Shown: one piece after another, positions 16,350 through 52,872 of the stretch
How the letters are laid out: each line of letters begins with the position of its first letter
Position numbering within the stretch: the first letter of the stretch is position 1
NCBI RefSeq assembly: GCF_004341365.1
Contig: NZ_SLXH01000025.1
Coordinates: forward strand, 1 to 64,000
DNA: 64,000 nucleotides
Source: Simplicispira metamorpha
Lineage (GTDB): Bacteria; Pseudomonadota; Gammaproteobacteria; Burkholderiales; Burkholderiaceae_C
Reading direction: 5' to 3'
The notes under the pieces: model-generated
The model's database searches: none
Seen by the model: the letters and a program-made list of their open reading frames with translations, nothing else
Told to the model about the DNA's origin: nothing
Position numbers and translations under genes: made by a program

Positions 16350-16355
16350 CGTTCA

Positions 16356-16423
16356 ATTGCTACTTTTTTGATAGCTTCTTGCGCTGATTGTGCAAGGGCT
16401 AGAGGCTGATTTGGCTCAAAATT
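16356..16423 (-). repeat. dispersed ~60-bp repeat, copy E
   Basis: Reverse-orientation copy: TTGCTACTTTTTTGATAGCT at the left and AGGCTGATTTGGCTCAAAAT at the right. It lies inside the operon, between the DppC-like and DppD-like genes. Confidence 0.8.
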
Positions 16424-17335
16424 TCAGCGCAGGCGCGGGTTCAGCGCATCGCGCAGCCAGTCGCCCAGCAGGTTCACGCTCAGGGCGATGAGCACCAGCA
16501 TCAGGCCGGGGAACACCGTGATCCACCACTCGCCCGAGAACAAATAGTCGTTGCCCACCCGGATCAGCGTGCCCAGCGAGGGCGAGGTGGGCGGCGCGCC
16601 CACGCCCAGAAACGACAGCGTGGCCTCGGTGATGATGGCCGTGGCCACCTGGATGGTGGCCAGCACCAGCACCGGCCCCATCACGTTGGGCAGCACGTGG
16701 CGGCGCATGATGGTCAGCGGCGCCACGCCGGTGACGCGCGCGGCCTGCACGTATTCCTTGTTGCGCTCGACCAGCGTGGAGCCGCGCACCGTGCGCGCGT
16801 ACTGCACCCAGCCGGTGAGCGAAATCGACACGATGAGCACGCCAAAGGCCAGTGACTCGTGCGCGTTGGGCAGCAGCGCCCGGCCCACGCCCGCAATCAG
16901 CAGCGCCACCAAAATGGCCGGAAACGACAGCATCACATCGCACAGGCGCATGAGCAGGCCGTCAATCCAGCCGCCGGTAAAGCCCGCCAGCAGCCCCAGC
17001 GCCACACCCACCACCACCGACAGCAGCACCGAGGCGATGCCCACCACCAGCGAGATGCGCGCGCCGTAGATCAGCGCCGAGAGGATGTCGCGGCCCTGGT
17101 CATCGGTGCCCAGCAGGTATTTGGCGCTGCCGTGCTCGCTCCAGGCGGGGGGCAGGCGCGCGTCGCTCAGCTCCAGCGTGGCCAGGTCAAACGGGTTGTA
17201 CGGCGCCACCCAGGGCGCAAACAGCGCGCAGAACACGCACACCAGCGCCACGGCGGCAGCCACCAACGCCATGGGCGAGGTGCGCAGGCTGTAGCCCACA
17301 TCGCTGTCCCACCAGCGCAGCAAGGTTGCCTTCAT
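16424..17335 (-). CDS. peptide-type ABC transporter permease (DppC/OppC)
   Basis: Inner-membrane permease of 303 residues. It has an N-terminal cytoplasmic stretch, a first membrane segment (LVAAAVALVCVFCALFAPWV) and the OppC N-terminal domain with LGTDDQGRDILSALIYGARI. The EAA loop is VRGSTLVERNKEYVQAARVT. It pairs with the DppB-like permease at 18700-19680. The M20 hydrolase gene sits between the two permease genes, an unusual split. A repeat copy separates this gene from the hydrolase gene. Confidence 0.9.
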   Translation of the reverse strand: MKATLLRWWDSDVGYSLRTSPMALVAAAVALVCVFCALFAPWVAPYNPFDLATLELSDARLPPAWSEHGSAKYLLGTDDQGRDILSALIYGARISLVVGIASVLLSVVVGVALGLLAGFTGGWIDGLLMRLCDVMLSFPAILVALLIAGVGRALLPNAHESLAFGVLIVSISLTGWVQYARTVRGSTLVERNKEYVQAARVTGVAPLTIMRRHVLPNVMGPVLVLATIQVATAIITEATLSFLGVGAPPTSPSLGTLIRVGNDYLFSGEWWITVFPGLMLVLIALSVNLLGDWLRDALNPRLR

Positions 17336-23583: not shown

Positions 23584-23942
23584 GCCGATGACCTTTGTTA
23601 TGTGAAATGATTTTTGCCTGAGCGCCTTGCCCACCCCCACGTGCAGCCACATGGAACAGGGCAAAGATTGCTTTAACCCCTGAATTGTCCCGGATTTTGT
23701 TGCGACGCAACATTCACACGGCAATTAGGGTAAACTCCCATCCAGCGCTGCCAGTTGATTGCAACAGGCACCGGCAAAGTGGCTATGCCACCTGCCCTCG
23801 CAACGTTTGTCTCCTCCATCTCCTCAAAGGATGGATTCAGCCCCAAGCCTCACGGCCTGGGGCTTTTTTTTGGTCTTTTCCTGGAGGCAGTGCCTGGATG
23901 CGGGCGCCTATGATTGCTGCGAACTTTCCTGGCACCCCCACC
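23584..23942 (+). ncRNA. structured leader RNA or small RNA ending in a terminator, upstream of ilvA
   Basis: No gene fits here. On the plus strand 23756-23812 folds as nested stems: TTGC/GCAA outside, AGGCA/TGCCCT next, and GTGGC-TAT-GCCAC at the tip (23777-23789). A second hairpin pairs TCCATC with GATGGA (23815-23835), then comes the terminator at 23840-23872. The OsmC gene reads the other way, so any transcript reaching this terminator must start within about 250 bp. This suggests either an attenuator for ilvA or an independent small RNA of 100-140 nt. I do not recognise a known riboswitch class. Confidence 0.5.
23840..23872 (+). terminator. rho-independent terminator in the ilvA leader
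   Basis: AGCCCCA and TGGGGCT arms, extended by GCC/GGC around a TCAC loop, are followed by eight T residues. It lies about 70 bp before the ilvA start, on the same strand. Confidence 0.88.
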
Positions 23943-29077: not shown

Positions 29078-29902
29078 ATGCAAGCCCTTCGCCACTACCT
29101 GCTGGCCGTGCAGTTTTTTACGCGCATTCCCGTCACCGGGCGGCTGGCCGACTGGGTGGGCTTCAGCCCCGCCATGCTGCGTGCCAGCAGCGCGCACTTT
29201 CCGGGCGTGGGCTGGCTGGTGGCGGCGGCAGCGGCGCTGGCGTATGGCGCGCTGCACTGGGCGCTGGCGCCCAACCCGCTGGCGCCAGCGGTGGCTGCCG
29301 TGGGCTGCACCATCGCCACCGTGCTGCTCACCGGCGGTTTTCACGAAGACGGTCTGGCCGATGTGGCCGACGGCCTGGGCGGCAGCTACGACCGCGAGCG
29401 CGCACTGGACATCATGAAAGACTCGCGCATCGGCGCTTTTGGCGCCATGGCACTGGTGCTGGCGCTGCTGGCCAAGGTCAGCCTGCTGGCCCTGCTGGGC
29501 GCGCACAGCCTGAGCGCCGCGCTGGCCGCGCTGGTGGGCGGCCATGTGCTCTCGCGCTGGTGGCCGCTGTGGCTGGTGCGGTGGCTGCCGCATGTGGGTG
29601 ATACGGCCCGCTCCAAAAGCAAGCCGCTGGCCGACCAGATCAGCGCCCAGGCCCTGGCAGCGGCTGGTTTATGGTGTTTTTTGCCTCTGGCCCTTGTCTG
29701 GAAAGCGCAAGCAGCTCTGTTTTTAATAGCAGCCGTGGTGTGCAGCGCCCTGGCTGCGGGGCACATGGCGCGGCGCCTGGCGCGGCGCTTGCAGGGCTTC
29801 ACGGGTGACGGCCTGGGTGCCGTGCAGCAGGTCAGCGAAGTGGGCTTTTACCTGGGCGCGGCGCTGGCGCTGGGGCCGCTGGCGCTTTGGGTGGCCGCAT
29901 GA
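29078..29902 (+). CDS. cobS: adenosylcobinamide-GDP ribazoletransferase (cobalamin synthase)
   Basis: Polytopic inner-membrane enzyme of 274 residues that joins adenosylcobinamide-GDP to alpha-ribazole, completing the cobalamin nucleotide loop. Conserved segments are LLAVQFFTRIPV, GGFHEDGLADVADGLGGSYD with the acidic active-site residues, and ALDIMKDSRIGAFG. The hydrophobic stretch GLWCFLPLALVWKAQAALFL (about residues 197-216) is encoded by a copy of the dispersed repeat and uses TTA and ATA codons that are otherwise rare here. Its stop overlaps the cobC start (ATGA). Confidence 0.93.
   Translation: MQALRHYLLAVQFFTRIPVTGRLADWVGFSPAMLRASSAHFPGVGWLVAAAAALAYGALHWALAPNPLAPAVAAVGCTIATVLLTGGFHEDGLADVADGLGGSYDRERALDIMKDSRIGAFGAMALVLALLAKVSLLALLGAHSLSAALAALVGGHVLSRWWPLWLVRWLPHVGDTARSKSKPLADQISAQALAAAGLWCFLPLALVWKAQAALFLIAAVVCSALAAGHMARRLARRLQGFTGDGLGAVQQVSEVGFYLGAALALGPLALWVAA
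29675..29733 (+). repeat. dispersed repeat copy H, in frame inside cobS
   Basis: TTTTTTGCCTCTGGCCCTTG followed by AAAGCGCAAGCAGCTCTGTT and TTTAATAGCAGC match the family consensus. It is translated as part of a membrane segment. Confidence 0.72.
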
Positions 29903-39245: not shown

Positions 39246-40124
39246 GTGCCGCCCCTGCCTGCCGTGACTGCCTCCCCCCGCCCCACATCCCGCCACACCG
39301 CACGCAGCGCTGTGCCTGCACCGCGCTGGTCACGCACAGCCACACCCCATCGCGCCCGGCGTGCGCCCTGGGGCTGGGCACTGGCGGGCGTGCTGGCCGG
39401 GGCCATCCCAGCGGTGCTGGCATTTGCCCCGGCACAGTGGCTGGCGGCGGGCGTGGCCCAGGCCAGTGCAGAGCGGGTGCTGCTGATTCAACCGCGCGGC
39501 ACGGTCTGGACGGGTTCGGCCCAGCTCGTGCTGACGGGCGGGGCAGCCAGCCAGGATCGCGCGGCCCTGCCCGGGCGCATCAGTTGGCGCCTGCGCCCCA
39601 CGCTGGACGGGCTGCGCGCGCAGCTCCATGCCAGTTGCTGCACCAGCGCCCCCCTGCAAGCGCAGGTGCAACTGCGCTGGGGCGGTGCCCGCCTCACCGT
39701 GGCCGACGGCCACAGCCAATGGCCCGCCGCCGCGCTGACCGGGCTGGGCACCCCCTGGAATACCGTGCAGCCCCAGGGCCAGCTGCTGCTGCGCACCCAG
39801 GGCCTGCAAGCCGACTGGGCCAGTGGCCGCCTGCAGCTGGGCGGCCAGGTGCAGCTTGATGCGCTGGCGCTGTCGTCGCGCCTGTCCACGCTCAAACCCA
39901 TGGGCAGCTACCGCCTGGTGCTGCAAGGCGCCAGCGTGCCCACCCTCACCCTGCAAACCCTGGAAGGCGCGCTGCAACTGAGCGGCAGCGGCCAATGGGT
40001 GGGCCAGCGCCTGCGCTTTTCTGGCGAGGCCCGCGCCTCCCCCGAGCGCGAGGCCGCGCTGTCCAACCTCCTGAACATCATTGGGCGGCGCAGCGGCGCG
40101 CGCTCGCTTATCACCCTGGGTTAA
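39246..40124 (+). CDS. gspN: type II secretion protein GspN
   Basis: Protein of up to 292 residues. After an Arg/Pro-rich N-terminal stretch there is one membrane segment (WALAGVLAGAIPAVLAFAPA) and a periplasmic domain with LIQPRGTVWTGSAQLVLTGG and PGRISWRLRPTLDGLRAQLH, typical of GspN. The start is uncertain: GTG at 39246 gives the full length, and downstream starts are possible. GspN is dispensable in many systems and its role is poorly defined. Confidence 0.8.
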   Translation: MPPLPAVTASPRPTSRHTARSAVPAPRWSRTATPHRARRAPWGWALAGVLAGAIPAVLAFAPAQWLAAGVAQASAERVLLIQPRGTVWTGSAQLVLTGGAASQDRAALPGRISWRLRPTLDGLRAQLHASCCTSAPLQAQVQLRWGGARLTVADGHSQWPAAALTGLGTPWNTVQPQGQLLLRTQGLQADWASGRLQLGGQVQLDALALSSRLSTLKPMGSYRLVLQGASVPTLTLQTLEGALQLSGSGQWVGQRLRFSGEARASPEREAALSNLLNIIGRRSGARSLITLG

Positions 40125-40135
40125 CCGTCCACACC

Positions 40136-42385
40136 ATGCACCACCTGACCAAGCACCCTTTGCAAATTGCTATTCAAATGATAGCTGCTGGCGCTTTACT
40201 GGTAAGCGCTAGCGGCCATATTCATGCACAAACCGCCATCGATACCGGCACCGCCAGCGTGCGCCCGGGCGAACCCGTCACGCTGAACTTTGCCAACGCC
40301 GACATCGAGGCCGTGGCCCGCACCATGGCCACCATCACCGGGCGCAACGTGGTGGTTGACCCGCGCGTCAAAGGCCAGCTCAATCTGGTGACCGAGCGCG
40401 CCGTGACGCCCGCCGCCGCCTTCCAGCAGTTTCTGGCGGCGCTGCGCTTGCAGGGTTACACGGTGGTGGAGGCTGCGGGCCTTTACAAAGTGGTGCCCGA
40501 GGCCGATGCCAAACTGCAAGGCGGCAGCGTCAGCGTGGCCCAGCCGGGCAGCAGCGGCCCGGCGGGTGGGCAAATCGTCACGCAAATCTTCAAGCTCAAC
40601 TACGAAAGCGCGGGCAACCTGGTGCCGGTGCTGCGCCCGCTCATCAGCCCGAACAACACCATCAACGTCAACCCCGGCACCAACGCGCTGGTGATCACGG
40701 ACTACGCCGACAACCTGCAACGCCTGGGCAAGATCATTGCGGCCATGGATGTGTCCAATGCCAGCGACGTGGAAGTGATTGCGCTGCAACACGCCATTGC
40801 CGCCGACCTGGCGCCGCTGGTGGCGCGGCTGATCGACTCGGGCAGCGGCACAGGCAGCGCGGGCACAGGCGCAGGTGCGCAGGGCCAGACCGACACCTCG
40901 TTCAAAACCACGCTGCTGGCCGAGCCGCGCAGCAACTCGCTGGTGCTGCGCGCGGCCAACCCCGCGCGCGTGGCCCAGGTGCGGGCGCTGGTGGCCAAGC
41001 TCGACCAGGCGCCCGCGCCCGGCAGCAGCGCTGCCCACGGCAACATCCACGTCGTCTATCTGAAAAACGCCGACGCCACCAAGCTGGCCATCACGTTGCG
41101 CGCGGCCATGTCGGCCATAGCGGGCAACGCCAGTGCCGCCACGGGCAGTGCTGGCGGCAGTGCCTCTGCGGCCAGCGCGTCCAGCAGCGCCAGCACGAAC
41201 GCCGGCATGGGCAACACCAGCAGCATGGGCGCCGGTGGCGGTCTGGGCGCAAGCGGCCCCATGGGCAATGCCAACGCCAACCAGCCCTCCACGGGCGGAC
41301 AAATCCAGGCCGACCCGAGCACCAACTCGCTCATCATCACCGCGCCCGAGCCGCAGTACCGCCAGCTGCGCGCCGTCATCGACAAGCTCGATGGCCGCCG
41401 CGCCCAGGTGCTGGTCGAGAGCCTGATCGTCGAGGTCAACGCCAACAAGCTGGCCGAGTTCGGTATCCAGTGGCAAAGCGTTCTGGGCAACAAGGGCGAT
41501 GGCACCGTGGGCCTGATTGGCACCAACTCCAACAAATCCGGCGCCAACATCATTGGGGTCATGGCAGGCATTGCGCAGGGTGCCACCAAACTGGGCGAAA
41601 CCGCAGGCACGCTGGGCCGTGGCCTGAACCTGGCGCTGGCACCGCGCATCAATGGCCAGTATTACCTGGGCGCGCTGGCCAACTTTTTGCAAAACAGTGG
41701 CGACTCCAACGTGCTGTCCACCCCCAACCTGATGACGCTGGACAACGAAGAGGCAAAAATCGTCATCGGCAAGAACGTGCCCTTTCCCACCGGCTCCTAC
41801 ACCAACACCGGCGGCAACAACGGCGCGGTCAATCCCTTCACCACCGTCGAACGCAAAGACGTGGGCCTGATGCTGCGCGTGCGCCCGCAGATCAACGAAA
41901 ACGGCACCGTGAAGATGTCGATTTACCAGGAAGTCTCGAACATCGACACCGCCACGCTCGGCGACAAAAACGGCCCCACCACCAGCAAGCGCTCCATCGA
42001 ATCGAACGTGCTGGTGGAAGACGGCAGCATCATCGTCATTGGCGGCCTGCTCGAAGACAGCTACTCGCAGGCCGAAGACAAGGTGCCGGTGATGGGCGAC
42101 ATCCCCGTGCTGGGCAACCTGTTCCGCAGCGAAAACCGCGAACGCAAAAAAACCAATCTGATGGTGTTCCTGCGCCCCGTGGTGGTGCGCGACGCGGCCA
42201 CCAGCGACTCGTTGATGGTGGACCGCTACGACGCCATCCGCGCCATGCAACAGGTGGTGCAACCCCAGCCCAGCGTGGTGCTGGGCACCGTCTCGGGCGC
42301 GCCTTTGCTGCCTGCGCTGCCCGCACCAGCCGCCACCCCGGCGCCCGCTGCGGCGCCCTCGGCCCCACCCGCCAGCGCTCTGTAA
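40136..42385 (+). CDS. gspD: type II secretion secretin GspD
   Basis: Outer-membrane secretin of 749 residues. The signal peptide, residues 1-31, is partly encoded by a dispersed repeat (IAIQMIAAGALLVSA). The N0 domain begins VTLNFANADIEAVARTMATI; N1-N3 follow. A Gly/Ala/Ser/Asn-rich insert lies at about 327-388 inside N3. The secretin core holds VLSTPNLMTLDNEEAKIVIG and VPVMGDIPVLGNLFRSENRE. A Pro/Ala tail ends the protein. It forms the exit channel of the system. The ATG at 40136 lies 11 bp past gspN. Confidence 0.93.
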   Translation: MHHLTKHPLQIAIQMIAAGALLVSASGHIHAQTAIDTGTASVRPGEPVTLNFANADIEAVARTMATITGRNVVVDPRVKGQLNLVTERAVTPAAAFQQFLAALRLQGYTVVEAAGLYKVVPEADAKLQGGSVSVAQPGSSGPAGGQIVTQIFKLNYESAGNLVPVLRPLISPNNTINVNPGTNALVITDYADNLQRLGKIIAAMDVSNASDVEVIALQHAIAADLAPLVARLIDSGSGTGSAGTGAGAQGQTDTSFKTTLLAEPRSNSLVLRAANPARVAQVRALVAKLDQAPAPGSSAAHGNIHVVYLKNADATKLAITLRAAMSAIAGNASAATGSAGGSASAASASSSASTNAGMGNTSSMGAGGGLGASGPMGNANANQPSTGGQIQADPSTNSLIITAPEPQYRQLRAVIDKLDGRRAQVLVESLIVEVNANKLAEFGIQWQSVLGNKGDGTVGLIGTNSNKSGANIIGVMAGIAQGATKLGETAGTLGRGLNLALAPRINGQYYLGALANFLQNSGDSNVLSTPNLMTLDNEEAKIVIGKNVPFPTGSYTNTGGNNGAVNPFTTVERKDVGLMLRVRPQINENGTVKMSIYQEVSNIDTATLGDKNGPTTSKRSIESNVLVEDGSIIVIGGLLEDSYSQAEDKVPVMGDIPVLGNLFRSENRERKKTNLMVFLRPVVVRDAATSDSLMVDRYDAIRAMQQVVQPQPSVVLGTVSGAPLLPALPAPAATPAPAAAPSAPPASAL
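40165..40217 (-). repeat. dispersed repeat copy I, in frame inside the gspD signal peptide
   Basis: Reverse-orientation copy ATTGCTATTCAAATGATAGC, then TGCTGGCGCTTTACTGGTAA and GCGCTAGCGGCC. It supplies the hydrophobic core of the GspD signal peptide. Confidence 0.82.
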
Positions 42386-50555: not shown

Positions 50556-51785
50556 ATGCCTGCTTTTTCTTTTGAAGCCCTCGACGCCCAGGGCCAGACC
50601 CGCAAAGGCGTGCTGGAGGCCGACACCGCCAAGGCCGCGCGCGGCCAACTGCGCGCACAGGCGCTGGTGCCGCTGGCCGTGCAGCCTGTGGATGCGGGCC
50701 AGGCCGCAGGCGCCAGCGCGCACTGGAGCCAGCGCCTGTTCACGCGCGCGGCCTTCAGCGCCACCGCTCTGGCGGTGTGGACGCGCCAGCTCGCCGGTCT
50801 GGTGGCCTCGGGCCTGCCGCTGGAGCGCGCGCTCACCGCCCTGGCCGAAGAGGCCGACGACGAGCGCCAGCACCACCTGGTGGCCGTGCTGCGCGCCGAG
50901 GTCAACGCGGGCTCCACCTTTGCCCGTGCGCTGCAACAGCACCCGCGCGAGTTCTCGGACATTTACTGCGCCGTCATCGGTGCGGGCGAGGCCAGCGGCA
51001 GCCTGGGCCTGGTGCTGGAGCGCCTGGCCGATGACCTGGAAGAGCGCCAGGCGCTGCAAGCCAAGCTGGTGGGCGCGGCGCTGTACCCGGCCATCGTCAC
51101 GCTGGTGGCCATCACCATCGTGCTGTTTCTGGTCACTTACGTGGTGCCGCAGGTGGCCAGCGTGTTTGCGGGCACCAAACGCGCCCTGCCCTTCCTCACC
51201 GTGGCCATGCTGGGCCTGAGCAGCGGCGTGCGCAACTATGGCTGGCTGATGCTATCCACTCTTGTTTTGATAGCTGTTGGCGCACGTCTGGCCTTGTCAA
51301 AAGCCGATTTTCGTGAAAAATTTGACGCCGCCTGGCTCACGCTGCCGCTGGTCGGGCGGCTGGCGCGCGGCTACAACGCGGCGCGTTTTGCCAGCACGCT
51401 GGCGATGCTGGCGGGTGCGGGCGTGCCCATCCTGAAAGCGCTGCAAGCCGCCGCCGAAACGCTGAACAACCGCGCCATGCGCGCCGATGCCCTGGACGCC
51501 CTGGTGCTGGTGCGCGAGGGCGCGCCCCTGGCCTCGGCGCTGGCGCAGAAAAAGCGCTTTCCGGGTCTGGTCGCCATGTTTGCCCGGCTGGGCGAACAAA
51601 CCGGCCAGCTGCCCGTGATGCTGCAACGCGCCGCCACCCAGCTGTCTGCCGAGGTACAGCGCCGCGCCCTGCAACTGGCCACCATCCTGGAGCCGCTGCT
51701 GATCGTGGCCATGGGGCTGATCGTCATGCTCATCGTGCTGGCGGTGCTGCTGCCCATCATCCAGCTCAACCAGTTCGTCAAATGA
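50556..51785 (+). CDS. gspF: type II secretion inner-membrane protein GspF
   Basis: Platform protein of 409 residues, starting MPAFSFEALDAQGQTRKGVL. It has two homologous cytoplasmic helical domains (ALAVWTRQLAGLVASGLPLE and ARFASTLAMLAGAGVPILKA), each followed by membrane spans, and the C-terminal LPIIQLNQFVK. It completes the gsp set but lies 6.8 kb downstream of gspE behind unrelated genes. The segment WLMLSTLVLIAVGARLAL (about residues 230-248) is encoded by a dispersed repeat copy and includes CTA and ATA codons. Confidence 0.93.
   Translation: MPAFSFEALDAQGQTRKGVLEADTAKAARGQLRAQALVPLAVQPVDAGQAAGASAHWSQRLFTRAAFSATALAVWTRQLAGLVASGLPLERALTALAEEADDERQHHLVAVLRAEVNAGSTFARALQQHPREFSDIYCAVIGAGEASGSLGLVLERLADDLEERQALQAKLVGAALYPAIVTLVAITIVLFLVTYVVPQVASVFAGTKRALPFLTVAMLGLSSGVRNYGWLMLSTLVLIAVGARLALSKADFREKFDAAWLTLPLVGRLARGYNAARFASTLAMLAGAGVPILKALQAAAETLNNRAMRADALDALVLVREGAPLASALAQKKRFPGLVAMFARLGEQTGQLPVMLQRAATQLSAEVQRRALQLATILEPLLIVAMGLIVMLIVLAVLLPIIQLNQFVK
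51250..51315 (-). repeat. dispersed repeat copy L, in frame inside gspF
   Basis: Reverse-orientation copy with TTGTTTTGATAGCTGTTGGC and CAAAAGCCGATTTTCGTGAA, read in the same frame as the gspD copy (ATA GCT GTT GGC GC). Confidence 0.78.
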
Positions 51786-51939: not shown

Positions 51940-52872
51940 ATGGCTTTGAACCTGCATGACCAACTGGTGGTTGCCATCTCCTCGCGCGCCCTGTTCGACT
52001 TTGAGGAAGAGAACAACGTCTTCGAGCACGGCAACGATGCGGCCTACGTCGCCCTGCAACGCCAGCGGCTGGAGCTGCCCGCCGCGCCCGGCGTAGCGTT
52101 TTCGCTGGTGCGCAAGCTCCTGGCCTTCAACAGCGCCGAGCACCAGCGCGTGGAGGTGGTGTTGCTGTCGCGCAACGACCCGGTCAGCGGCATGCGGGTG
52201 TTCCGCTCCTGCCGCGCCCACGGCCTGCCCAGCGTGCAGCGCGGCGTGTTCACCCAGGGGCGCGACCCGTTTGGCTACCTGCGGCCCTTGGGCGCGCACC
52301 TGTTCTTGTCGGCCAACGAAGCCGATGTGCGCCAGGCCCTGCACCTGGGCTACCCGGCCGCGCGCGTGCTGACCGAATCGGTGCAGGCCGGCGACGCCCA
52401 CCCGCACGAGGTGCGCATTGCCTTTGACGGCGACGCGGTGCTGTTCTCCGACGAGGCCGAGCGCGTGTTCCAGGCCCAGGGCTTAGCGGCCTTTCAGCAG
52501 CACGAAACCGACAAGGCCGCGCAGCCATTGCCCGAGGGCCCGTTCAAGCCGCTGCTGGTGGCGCTGCACCGCCTGCAACAGGCCGCCGACACCGGCATGC
52601 GCGTGCGCACCGCGCTGGTCACGGCGCGCAGCGCGCCCGCGCACGAGCGCGCCATCCGCACGCTGATGGACTGGAACATTGCGGTGGATGAAGCCATGTT
52701 TCTGGGCGGCCTGCCCAAGGGGGAGTTTCTGCGCGAATTCGAGCCCGATTTTTTCTTTGACGACCAGACCGGCCACGTCACCTCAGCGGCGCAGCATGTG
52801 CCCTCGGGCCACGTCAGCAGCGGCATCGCCAACCCACCCCCAGTGGGCACAGCACAGAAAAATATGGGTTAA
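51940..52872 (+). CDS. 5'-nucleotidase (PF06189-type)
   Basis: Cytosolic 5'-nucleotidase family protein of 310 residues. Conserved segments are LVVAISSRALFDFEEENNVF with the first acidic motif, VEVVLLSRNDPVSGMRVFRS, VRIAFDGDAVLFSDEAERVF (the DGD core) and MFLGGLPKGEFLREFEPDFF with FFDDQ. It should dephosphorylate nucleoside monophosphates. The start at 51940 follows GGAGATACCCG. It is on the same strand as gspF but 154 bp away. Confidence 0.88.
   Translation: MALNLHDQLVVAISSRALFDFEEENNVFEHGNDAAYVALQRQRLELPAAPGVAFSLVRKLLAFNSAEHQRVEVVLLSRNDPVSGMRVFRSCRAHGLPSVQRGVFTQGRDPFGYLRPLGAHLFLSANEADVRQALHLGYPAARVLTESVQAGDAHPHEVRIAFDGDAVLFSDEAERVFQAQGLAAFQQHETDKAAQPLPEGPFKPLLVALHRLQQAADTGMRVRTALVTARSAPAHERAIRTLMDWNIAVDEAMFLGGLPKGEFLREFEPDFFFDDQTGHVTSAAQHVPSGHVSSGIANPPPVGTAQKNMG

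Follow-up and report, generated by a model that had tools for sequence, protein, structure and literature searches.

A palindromic DNA element of Comamonadaceae that overlaps in frame with the signal peptide of the secretin GspD

Background

REP sequences and BIMEs are short palindromic sequences, mostly intergenic and present in hundreds of copies. Rickettsia palindromic elements (RPEs) are repeats reported from many protein genes, where they are translated in frame and lengthen the protein by an additional segment. USS carry A/T tracts beside their core. For the DUS and USS of Neisseriaceae and Pasteurellaceae, hundreds of sites are described, some of them in frame in genes, which change in place without insertion (van Passel 2008, PMC2346458). 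The BRE, a repeat of 75-91 bp from Bordetella and some Comamonadaceae, has some copies in coding sequences, a GC content of 69% and at most 29 copies (Hot 2011, PMC3110155). The closest precedent for the arrangement reported here concerns a putative exported protein of one genus and was read as a fusion.

The locus analysed here lies in a stretch of 64,000 nt from Simplicispira metamorpha (contig NZ_SLXH01000025.1, positions 1 to 64,000, forward strand), referred to below as the window. It contains a copy of a discrete palindromic element of about 70 nt, which is present in hundreds of copies per genome in most Simplicispira and in many other Comamonadaceae, a family with members in water and soil. 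Like REP sequences and BIMEs, the element is palindromic, mostly intergenic and found in hundreds of copies, but it lacks the link to Y1 transposases of the REP/RAYT system and has a fair number of in-frame intragenic copies. It resembles RPEs in being palindromic and in frame inside genes; unlike with RPEs, gspD and cobS contain no whole extra segment, and aroE and PepN no more than 5-10 additional residues. With DUS and USS it shares the hundreds of sites, some in frame in genes, and the A/T tracts, but it is palindromic, about 70 nt long and spaced at about 1.8 per 10 kb, whereas DUS and USS measure 9-12 nt. Identity with the BRE was rejected, since the element is AT-rich and has far more copies; the two are set apart by GC content, copy number and range only. 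Compared with the closest precedent, a core secretin across a bacterial family is concerned here, with retention at the codon level, colinear alternatives and joint decay with the repeat family.

The element as such was not found in the open-access literature; subscription journals are mostly outside that literature, so this is no proof of the element being undescribed. As far as the literature searches show, the novelty lies in the involvement of a core gene, the spread across a whole family, the retention of codons and the loss from several genes together, and the element was therefore not filed as a member of the REP, RPE, BRE or DUS groups.

An element copy in the signal peptide of GspD

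The identification of the gene as gspD is firm, based on the N0, Secretin_N and Secretin domains detected with Pfam and on the neighbours T2SSN and T2SSE; a longer open reading frame with an alternative start at 39995 is possible. The N-terminus, MHHLTKHPLQ-IAIQMIAAGALLVSASGHIHA-Q, shows by eye the short n-region, the hydrophobic core and the small cleavage-site residues of a Sec signal peptide, and the domains begin at residue 50. The features of this region are as follows.

40136..42385, + strand: gspD, type II secretion secretin, 749 aa from the ATG at 40136 (Pfam PF21305 N0, PF03958, PF00263)
40165..40234, + strand: 70-nt palindromic element copy in gspD, in frame; 67.2 bits, 71.8 bits with the gspD-free matrix
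40169..40185, + strand: first inverted repeat of this copy, GCTAT...ATAGC, alignment columns 5-21
40179..40196, + strand: exact element core TGATAGCTGCTGGCGCTT, one of the 74 exact TGATAGCTGCTNGCGCTT matches in the genome of origin
40181..40183, + strand: ATA codon (Ile16), part of the element; ATA in 53 of 54 repeat-like signal peptides
40190..40210, + strand: second inverted repeat, GGCGCTT, 7-nt spacer, AAGCGCT, with G and T as the outermost pair; alignment columns 26-46

The copy corresponds to columns 1-70 of the model (40165-40234) and touches GspD residues 10-33, from the signal-peptide core through the likely cleavage site ...IHA-Q. Its overall pattern is GCTATT...ATAGCTGC.AGCGCTT. The segment 40166-40216 encodes IAIQMIAAGALLVSASG, and the coordinates, frame and peptide given in the original prediction, which saw in this hydrophobic core a near-consensus repeat copy, are correct. 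The repeat had been placed at 40165-40217; its start holds, and its end lies further downstream, at about 40234.

A first weight matrix of 70 nt was derived from 31 copies of the same genome, all picked for the exact core and excluding gspD. The gspD copy scored 67.2 bits and the training copies 46-90 bits. When the peptide was recoded synonymously at random 20,000 times under local codon usage, scores averaged -3.6 bits and peaked at 26.0, none reaching 67. A second matrix, likewise free of gspD copies, drew on 121 copies in nine genomes of the genus and gave 71.8 bits for gspD, and the best place in the bodies of 87 gspD genes scored -29.8. That the core of the GspD signal peptide is encoded by a near-consensus copy of a genome-wide palindromic repeat is supported, and the match goes beyond what the protein sequence requires.

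The repeat family

The pattern TGATAGCTGCTNGCGCTT occurs 74 times in the genome of origin, and the reversed pattern is absent. A refined matrix detected about 130 copies in 744 kb taken from this genome and its relatives, a density of about 1.8 per 10 kb, and none in the reversed control; only three of the 133 places above 15 bits lie between 15 and 30. Since few places fall between copies and noise and none occur in the reversed control, the copies constitute a discrete repeat family, of which gspD holds a member. By extrapolation, about 650 copies would be present per genome. The window contains 17 places above 30 bits (31-copy matrix), gspD among them; other copies, in the window and elsewhere, include the following.

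16355..16424, + strand: intergenic copy, best in the window, 87.8 bits
61438..61507, + strand: intergenic copy, 72.7 bits
14278..14347, - strand: intergenic copy, 69.5 bits
7223..7334, no strand assigned: two overlapping copies in opposite orientation between genes, 43.7 and 43.4 bits
29665..29734, - strand: antisense copy inside cobS (29078-29902, + strand), 45.5 bits, encoding part of a hydrophobic segment
30065..30134, + strand: weaker intragenic copy in a histidine-phosphatase gene (Pfam His_Phos_1), 33.2 bits, 44.1 refined
51254..51323, + strand: intragenic copy in a T2SSF/PilC-type gene (50556-51785, + strand; Pfam T2SSF), 33.1 bits, 44.2 refined
G000:C12:59652-60509 (L273): aroE with a copy in frame just before a DLIINAT-like motif; among aroE of 23 other genomes of the genus, the copy is eroded in the three repeat-free species
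Relatives: copies inside genes for aminopeptidase N (L223:3853-3922), a DUF3683/FAD-oxidase protein (L231:9605-9674) and an RNB-domain protein (L151:14368-14437, antisense)

Conserved positions are spread across about 65 nt. The information content is about 62 bits over 70 nt, a figure inflated by thresholding; the mean column identity of the copies is about 70%, and the consensus is AT-rich. The midpoints of 91 of 131 copies lie between genes, and both orientations are present. Another 29 of the 131 are located inside called genes, at a depth of at least 40 nt, eight of these being gspD of different genomes. The gene calls used for this placement are crude, relying on ORF length and GC3, and an open frame at intragenic copies is therefore by construction. 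The copy in the T2SSF/PilC-type gene is read in the same frame as that in gspD and has related copies in genomes G009, G018 and G025. Four element-like places are found within about 3.4 kb in G000:C13:41738-45114.

An Rfam search of the window returned no family at the element; the only match lies elsewhere, at 23808-23870. This match, on the + strand, is to Betaproteobacteria_toxic_sRNA (RF02278) with 65 bits.

Indications for a role as DNA

In 121 copies, the tract at columns 55-57 reads TTT in 96, AAA in 15 and a mixture in six, compared with 46 mixtures expected. At columns 11-14 and 55-57, the A/T tracts switch as a whole between runs of A and runs of T, and mixtures are few at 55-57. Such switches could reflect a bend requirement or an inversion of loops at the palindromes. 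Among the top column-pair signals in 130 copies, no base-pair covariation was detected; a swap from GCTA/TAGC to GCTC/GAGC was noticed by eye in a few copies, without a covariation signal. The gspD mRNA of six species was not clearly more stable than synonymous recodings, a fraction of 0.13 to 0.99 of which was equally stable. The presence of both orientations, the mostly intergenic location, the lack of covariation, the block-wise tracts and the lack of excess mRNA stability together favour a role of the element as DNA that is recognised by a putative protein.

Codon usage in the signal peptide region

The codons ATA and TTA had been called rare in the rest of the gene, and this was confirmed: beyond codon 45 of gspD and in three genes next to it, ATA accounts for two of 75 Ile codons and TTA for none of 225 Leu codons. 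For comparison, gspD of 87 species was used, 26 from the genus and 61 named ones; the latter remained from 80 named loci after 19 rows were dropped, 17 repeating genomes of the genus set plus L067 and L100. A score of at least 22 bits in the signal-peptide region (matrix without gspD copies) was obtained for 56 of the 87 species. The codon motif was located in 73 of the 87 signal peptides; 61 of these 73 species use ATA for the homologous Ile, and 35 use TTA for the Leu. In the bodies of the gspD genes, ATA makes up about 1.4% of Ile codons (1.5% and 1.2% when the genes are split by the repeat score of their signal peptides), and the share of TTA among Leu codons is about 0.22%. When divided by repeat score, 54 repeat-like signal peptides show ATA in 53 and TTA in 34 cases, and the other 19 show ATA in eight and TTA in one; this division is partly circular, the total of 73 is not.

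Association of the gspD copy with the repeat family

The family was counted with a covariance model built without gspD copies, and signal peptides with at least 22 bits were considered repeat-like. Scoring was limited to 150 candidates per genome. Among the 26 genomes of the genus, 23 reach this ceiling or nearly so, with at least 149 model matches, and G001, G015 and G022 have 0, 1 and 5, respectively. A repeat-like signal peptide is present in exactly the 23 repeat-rich genomes and absent from the other three. Completeness falls short in some of the 26 assemblies, with 84% for G015 and 99% for G001 and G022. In the named set, matches were counted in 30 of 61 genomes, chosen mostly for looking repeat-poor or discordant; 13 of them have at most 17 matches and 17 at least 53. 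Combining both sets, repeat-like signal peptides occur in 31 of 40 rich and in none of 16 poor genomes (at most 17 matches), with a Fisher p of 5e-8 that ignores relatedness. The model count leaves 31 of the 87 genomes outside, 25 of which score at least 22 bits. Besides G001, G015 and G022, clades free of the element include the Acidovorax soli pair S00198 and A1169, Comamonas BIGb0152 and koreensis, and Diaphorobacter aerolatus.

Conservation of the same codons in species lacking the repeat, the outcome named as contrary by the original prediction, was not encountered: none of the 16 poor genomes is repeat-like, and three (L119, L127 and L135) retain a lone ATA for the homologous Ile, apparently a vestige of the element. 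Conversely, nine of the 40 rich genomes have a gspD below 22 bits (L123 with -52, L132 with -46 and L118 with -24 bits, as well as L101, L124, L130, L125, L137 and L075), which indicates that the site is not obligatory and can be lost on its own.

Across the 87 species, the gspD score correlates with the density of exact cores (rho 0.76). GC content was considered as a confounder and rejected, the coefficient being unchanged with GC3 held constant. The repeat-free Simplicispira clade has the lowest GC3 (0.72), so the loss of its AT-rich codons was not due to GC pressure. A thin phylogenetic control was made with independent pairs from a quickly built gspD tree and with exact-core density, a cruder measure than the model count: of seven pairs, 5.3 follow the expected direction and 0.0 the opposite one, with a median p of 0.0625. 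At the level of the order, gspD signal peptides are too diverged to be aligned.

Element copies in cobS, aroE and PepN

Comparable patterns are seen in other genes. In cobS, the copy scores above 20 bits in 16 of the 23 genus genomes where it could be read. It is absent from the repeat-free genomes G001 and G022 and also from the rich genomes G003, G006, G011, G018 and G025, in which cobS is diverged. The distance between two anchors is 55 residues in all 23 genomes. In 18 CobS sequences from the order, the stretch differs by -10 to +7 residues, not by 23, in alignments that are uncertain.

In aroE, the element was found in all 22 copies from 21 rich genomes, with 37-81 bits under a matrix whose training includes four of them. 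G001, G015 and G022 have a colinear stretch of 34 residues scoring -13 to -21 bits, and a remnant of the element is present in G001 and G015. The set contains no full aroE from G019 and G020; G021 has two copies (C70:458-1291 and C100:3092-3919) in an assembly rated 7% contaminated. The stretch measures 34 residues with and without the element and 40-44 residues in seven of 25 sequences, which are 6-10 residues longer with the extra residues at the 3' end of the element, so that small indels go with the element in places. In solved AroE, the stretch overlaps the conserved motif around DLIINAT, and AroE bearing the element has five residues more than the PDB homologue. PepN with the element has seven residues more than solved PepN, compared with about 23 that a full unit would add. 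The repeat-free species that lack the gspD copy have also lost the element from cobS and aroE, through substitutions.

Positional stability of the copies

Outside the gsp operon, few flanks in the window map between G000 and the five relatives compared, and the closer pairs G005/G010 and G018/G025 were therefore used. From G025 to G018, 16 distinct places had both flanks mapped, all with an aligned counterpart, two of which are now below 20 bits. Of 15 places mapped in the reverse direction, 14 retain a recognisable copy, and the remaining one holds different DNA of another length. The flanks of these orthologous copies are 75-100% identical. In G005/G010, three distinct places were mapped and all are shared, two of them being gspD and aroE. 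A clean insertion or loss of a unit of about 65 bp was not seen in G018/G025 (16 and 15 places) or in G005/G010 (three places). In the comparison of the window with G009, the 7223/7265 pair, cobS and the T2SSF gene each have a diverged counterpart, while for the window copy at 52859 the corresponding G009 spacer contains none. A RAYT/Y1 transposase as the driver was rejected: G010 has 84 cores and no Y1 gene, and G001 has four Y1 genes and no core.

These results bear on the original proposal of a mobile or amplified palindrome that supplies an essential targeting sequence. Mobility is not supported, given the mapped copies, nearly all of which are orthologous in the close pair without clean gain or loss, and Y1 genes that do not track the repeat. 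The idea that the repeat supplied the sequence by insertion fares no better, as cobS and aroE show the same pattern and AroE and PepN gain five and seven residues instead of 23. This pattern and the small differences in length indicate coding sequence that was tuned to the element or kept as such, rather than a unit dropped in. In aligned gspD N-termini, the repeat-encoded stretch is, as expected, present in some species; the unrelated hydrophobic core expected in its place elsewhere is not found, since the repeat-free Simplicispira have a colinear core of equal length with other codons. On this comparative evidence, insertion of a mobile palindrome at gspD is not supported, and a full extra in-frame peptide of the rickettsial type does not appear to be present in gspD, cobS, aroE or PepN. 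The family must have spread by copying once; its members of today are mostly old, fixed and constrained.

Discussion

An old and positionally stable DNA element, kept by a process acting at the DNA level and with gspD as a dual-use site, is probably the correct explanation. It draws on the repeat family, the in-frame overlap, the codon-level conservation and the stable positions in a close species pair, and on the joint absence of element and codons from gspD, cobS and aroE in repeat-free species without a loss of 23 residues. The gspD DNA would be read twice, by the ribosome as the core of a signal peptide and at the DNA level as one site of the element. A genome-wide process, most simply recognition by a cellular protein, would keep the element; once this process is lost, copies would decay by point mutation, and gspD would keep only what a signal peptide needs, hydrophobicity and the right length. 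Whether gspD acquired the element by insertion or by gradual tuning lies too far back in time to be seen; within the genus, insertions are not visible. With about 62 bits spread over 70 nt, the element is long for something bound by a protein, which counts against this explanation and agrees with a unit that was copied when the family arose. Further points against it are the nine rich genomes with a weak gspD score, the five rich genomes whose cobS lacks the element, the longer aroE forms, the copy at 52859 that is missing from G009, the ATA codon kept in three poor genomes and the thin phylogenetic control.

Several other explanations were weighed. Neutral ectopic gene conversion would homogenise functionless copies, and the gspD copy would drift after loss of its donors; this accounts for the link between presence of the family and gspD codons and for the equal length of the proteins. 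Against this unlikely scenario, each orthologous copy in G018 and G025 has retained much of its individual spacer and flanks, which conversion between paralogs should blur, and 70 nt at about 70% identity is a poor substrate for homologous recombination. A mobile or amplifying element of the REP, MITE or RPE kind, inserted into gspD and exapted as a signal peptide, would agree with a discrete, high-information family, for which copying was needed at some time, with the longer aroE forms and the copy missing from the G009 spacer, and with the in-frame insertion of small repeats described elsewhere (Delihas 2007, PMC2759123). This view is nevertheless distinctly improbable in light of the shared places in G005/G010 (three of three), the single difference among 15 places in G018/G025, which arose through spacer replacement, the Y1 genes that do not track the family, and proteins of equal length that are colinear with and without a copy in gspD, cobS and the 34-residue form of aroE.

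Hairpins acting in the gspD mRNA, in control of translation or stability, were considered because two inverted repeats located 33-74 nt after the start codon are able to fold. Such a role is very unlikely given the stability of recoded mRNAs in six species, the missing covariation in 130 copies, the mostly intergenic location in both orientations and the loss of the gspD copy together with other copies. The hydrophobic frame of the element does suit a signal peptide, and a chance likeness of a sequence rich in Ala, Ile and Leu to the repeat might be imagined; with none of 20,000 recodings coming close, ATA in 61 of 73 species and a best body score of -29.8 over 87 genes, this idea is refuted for all practical purposes.

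Tentatively, the element may be a signal that gives DNA uptake its specificity in competent Comamonadaceae, or a comparable recognition site used throughout the genome under molecular drive, although we regard this as a possibility on the unlikely side. Biased uptake and recombination would create and keep sites in place, the GspD signal peptide and segments of CobS and AroE would be rewritten codon by codon to carry the element, and sites would decay together where competence or the receptor is lost. Sites in place, found family-wide and jointly lost, support such a role. The hundreds of dispersed chromosomal copies, intragenic ones included, in both orientations, resemble those of DUS and USS. 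The short core of 9-12 nt typical of the latter is not seen, conserved positions extending over about 65 nt, and to our knowledge no known DUS has a comparable length. Exact cores number 162 in Acidovorax temperans, 104 in A. facilis, 143 in A. defluvii and 9 in A. delafieldii. In published work that supports the uptake role, A. temperans and A. facilis, both rich in the element, are naturally transformable, with no transformation by DNA of another Acidovorax species, and Verminephrobacter eiseniae shows selective DNA binding (PMC4212676). In the same study, A. defluvii and A. delafieldii gave no transformants, and A. temperans did not take A. facilis markers (PMC4212676); as both bear the element, it cannot alone explain this species barrier. 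That the equally rich A. defluvii was not transformed, and that the length is unlike that of DUS, speaks against the uptake role. A single 86-nt query from a window copy, run with no positive control, matched none of 50,697 phage records and gave one weak match in 72,556 plasmid records. Exact core matches occur in 47 stretches of viral contigs.

Conclusions

The gspD copy provides a clear example from nature of bacterial coding DNA in dual use: an element found throughout the genome influences the codons, and to some extent the amino acids, of a targeting sequence in a whole bacterial family, and those of metabolic enzymes as well. In some clades the element has disappeared along with its traces in coding sequences, which offers a ready comparative system for finding the factor that maintains it. 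If the DNA-uptake reading is true, the Comamonadaceae would gain a signal sequence, and their published uptake selectivity would become directly testable.
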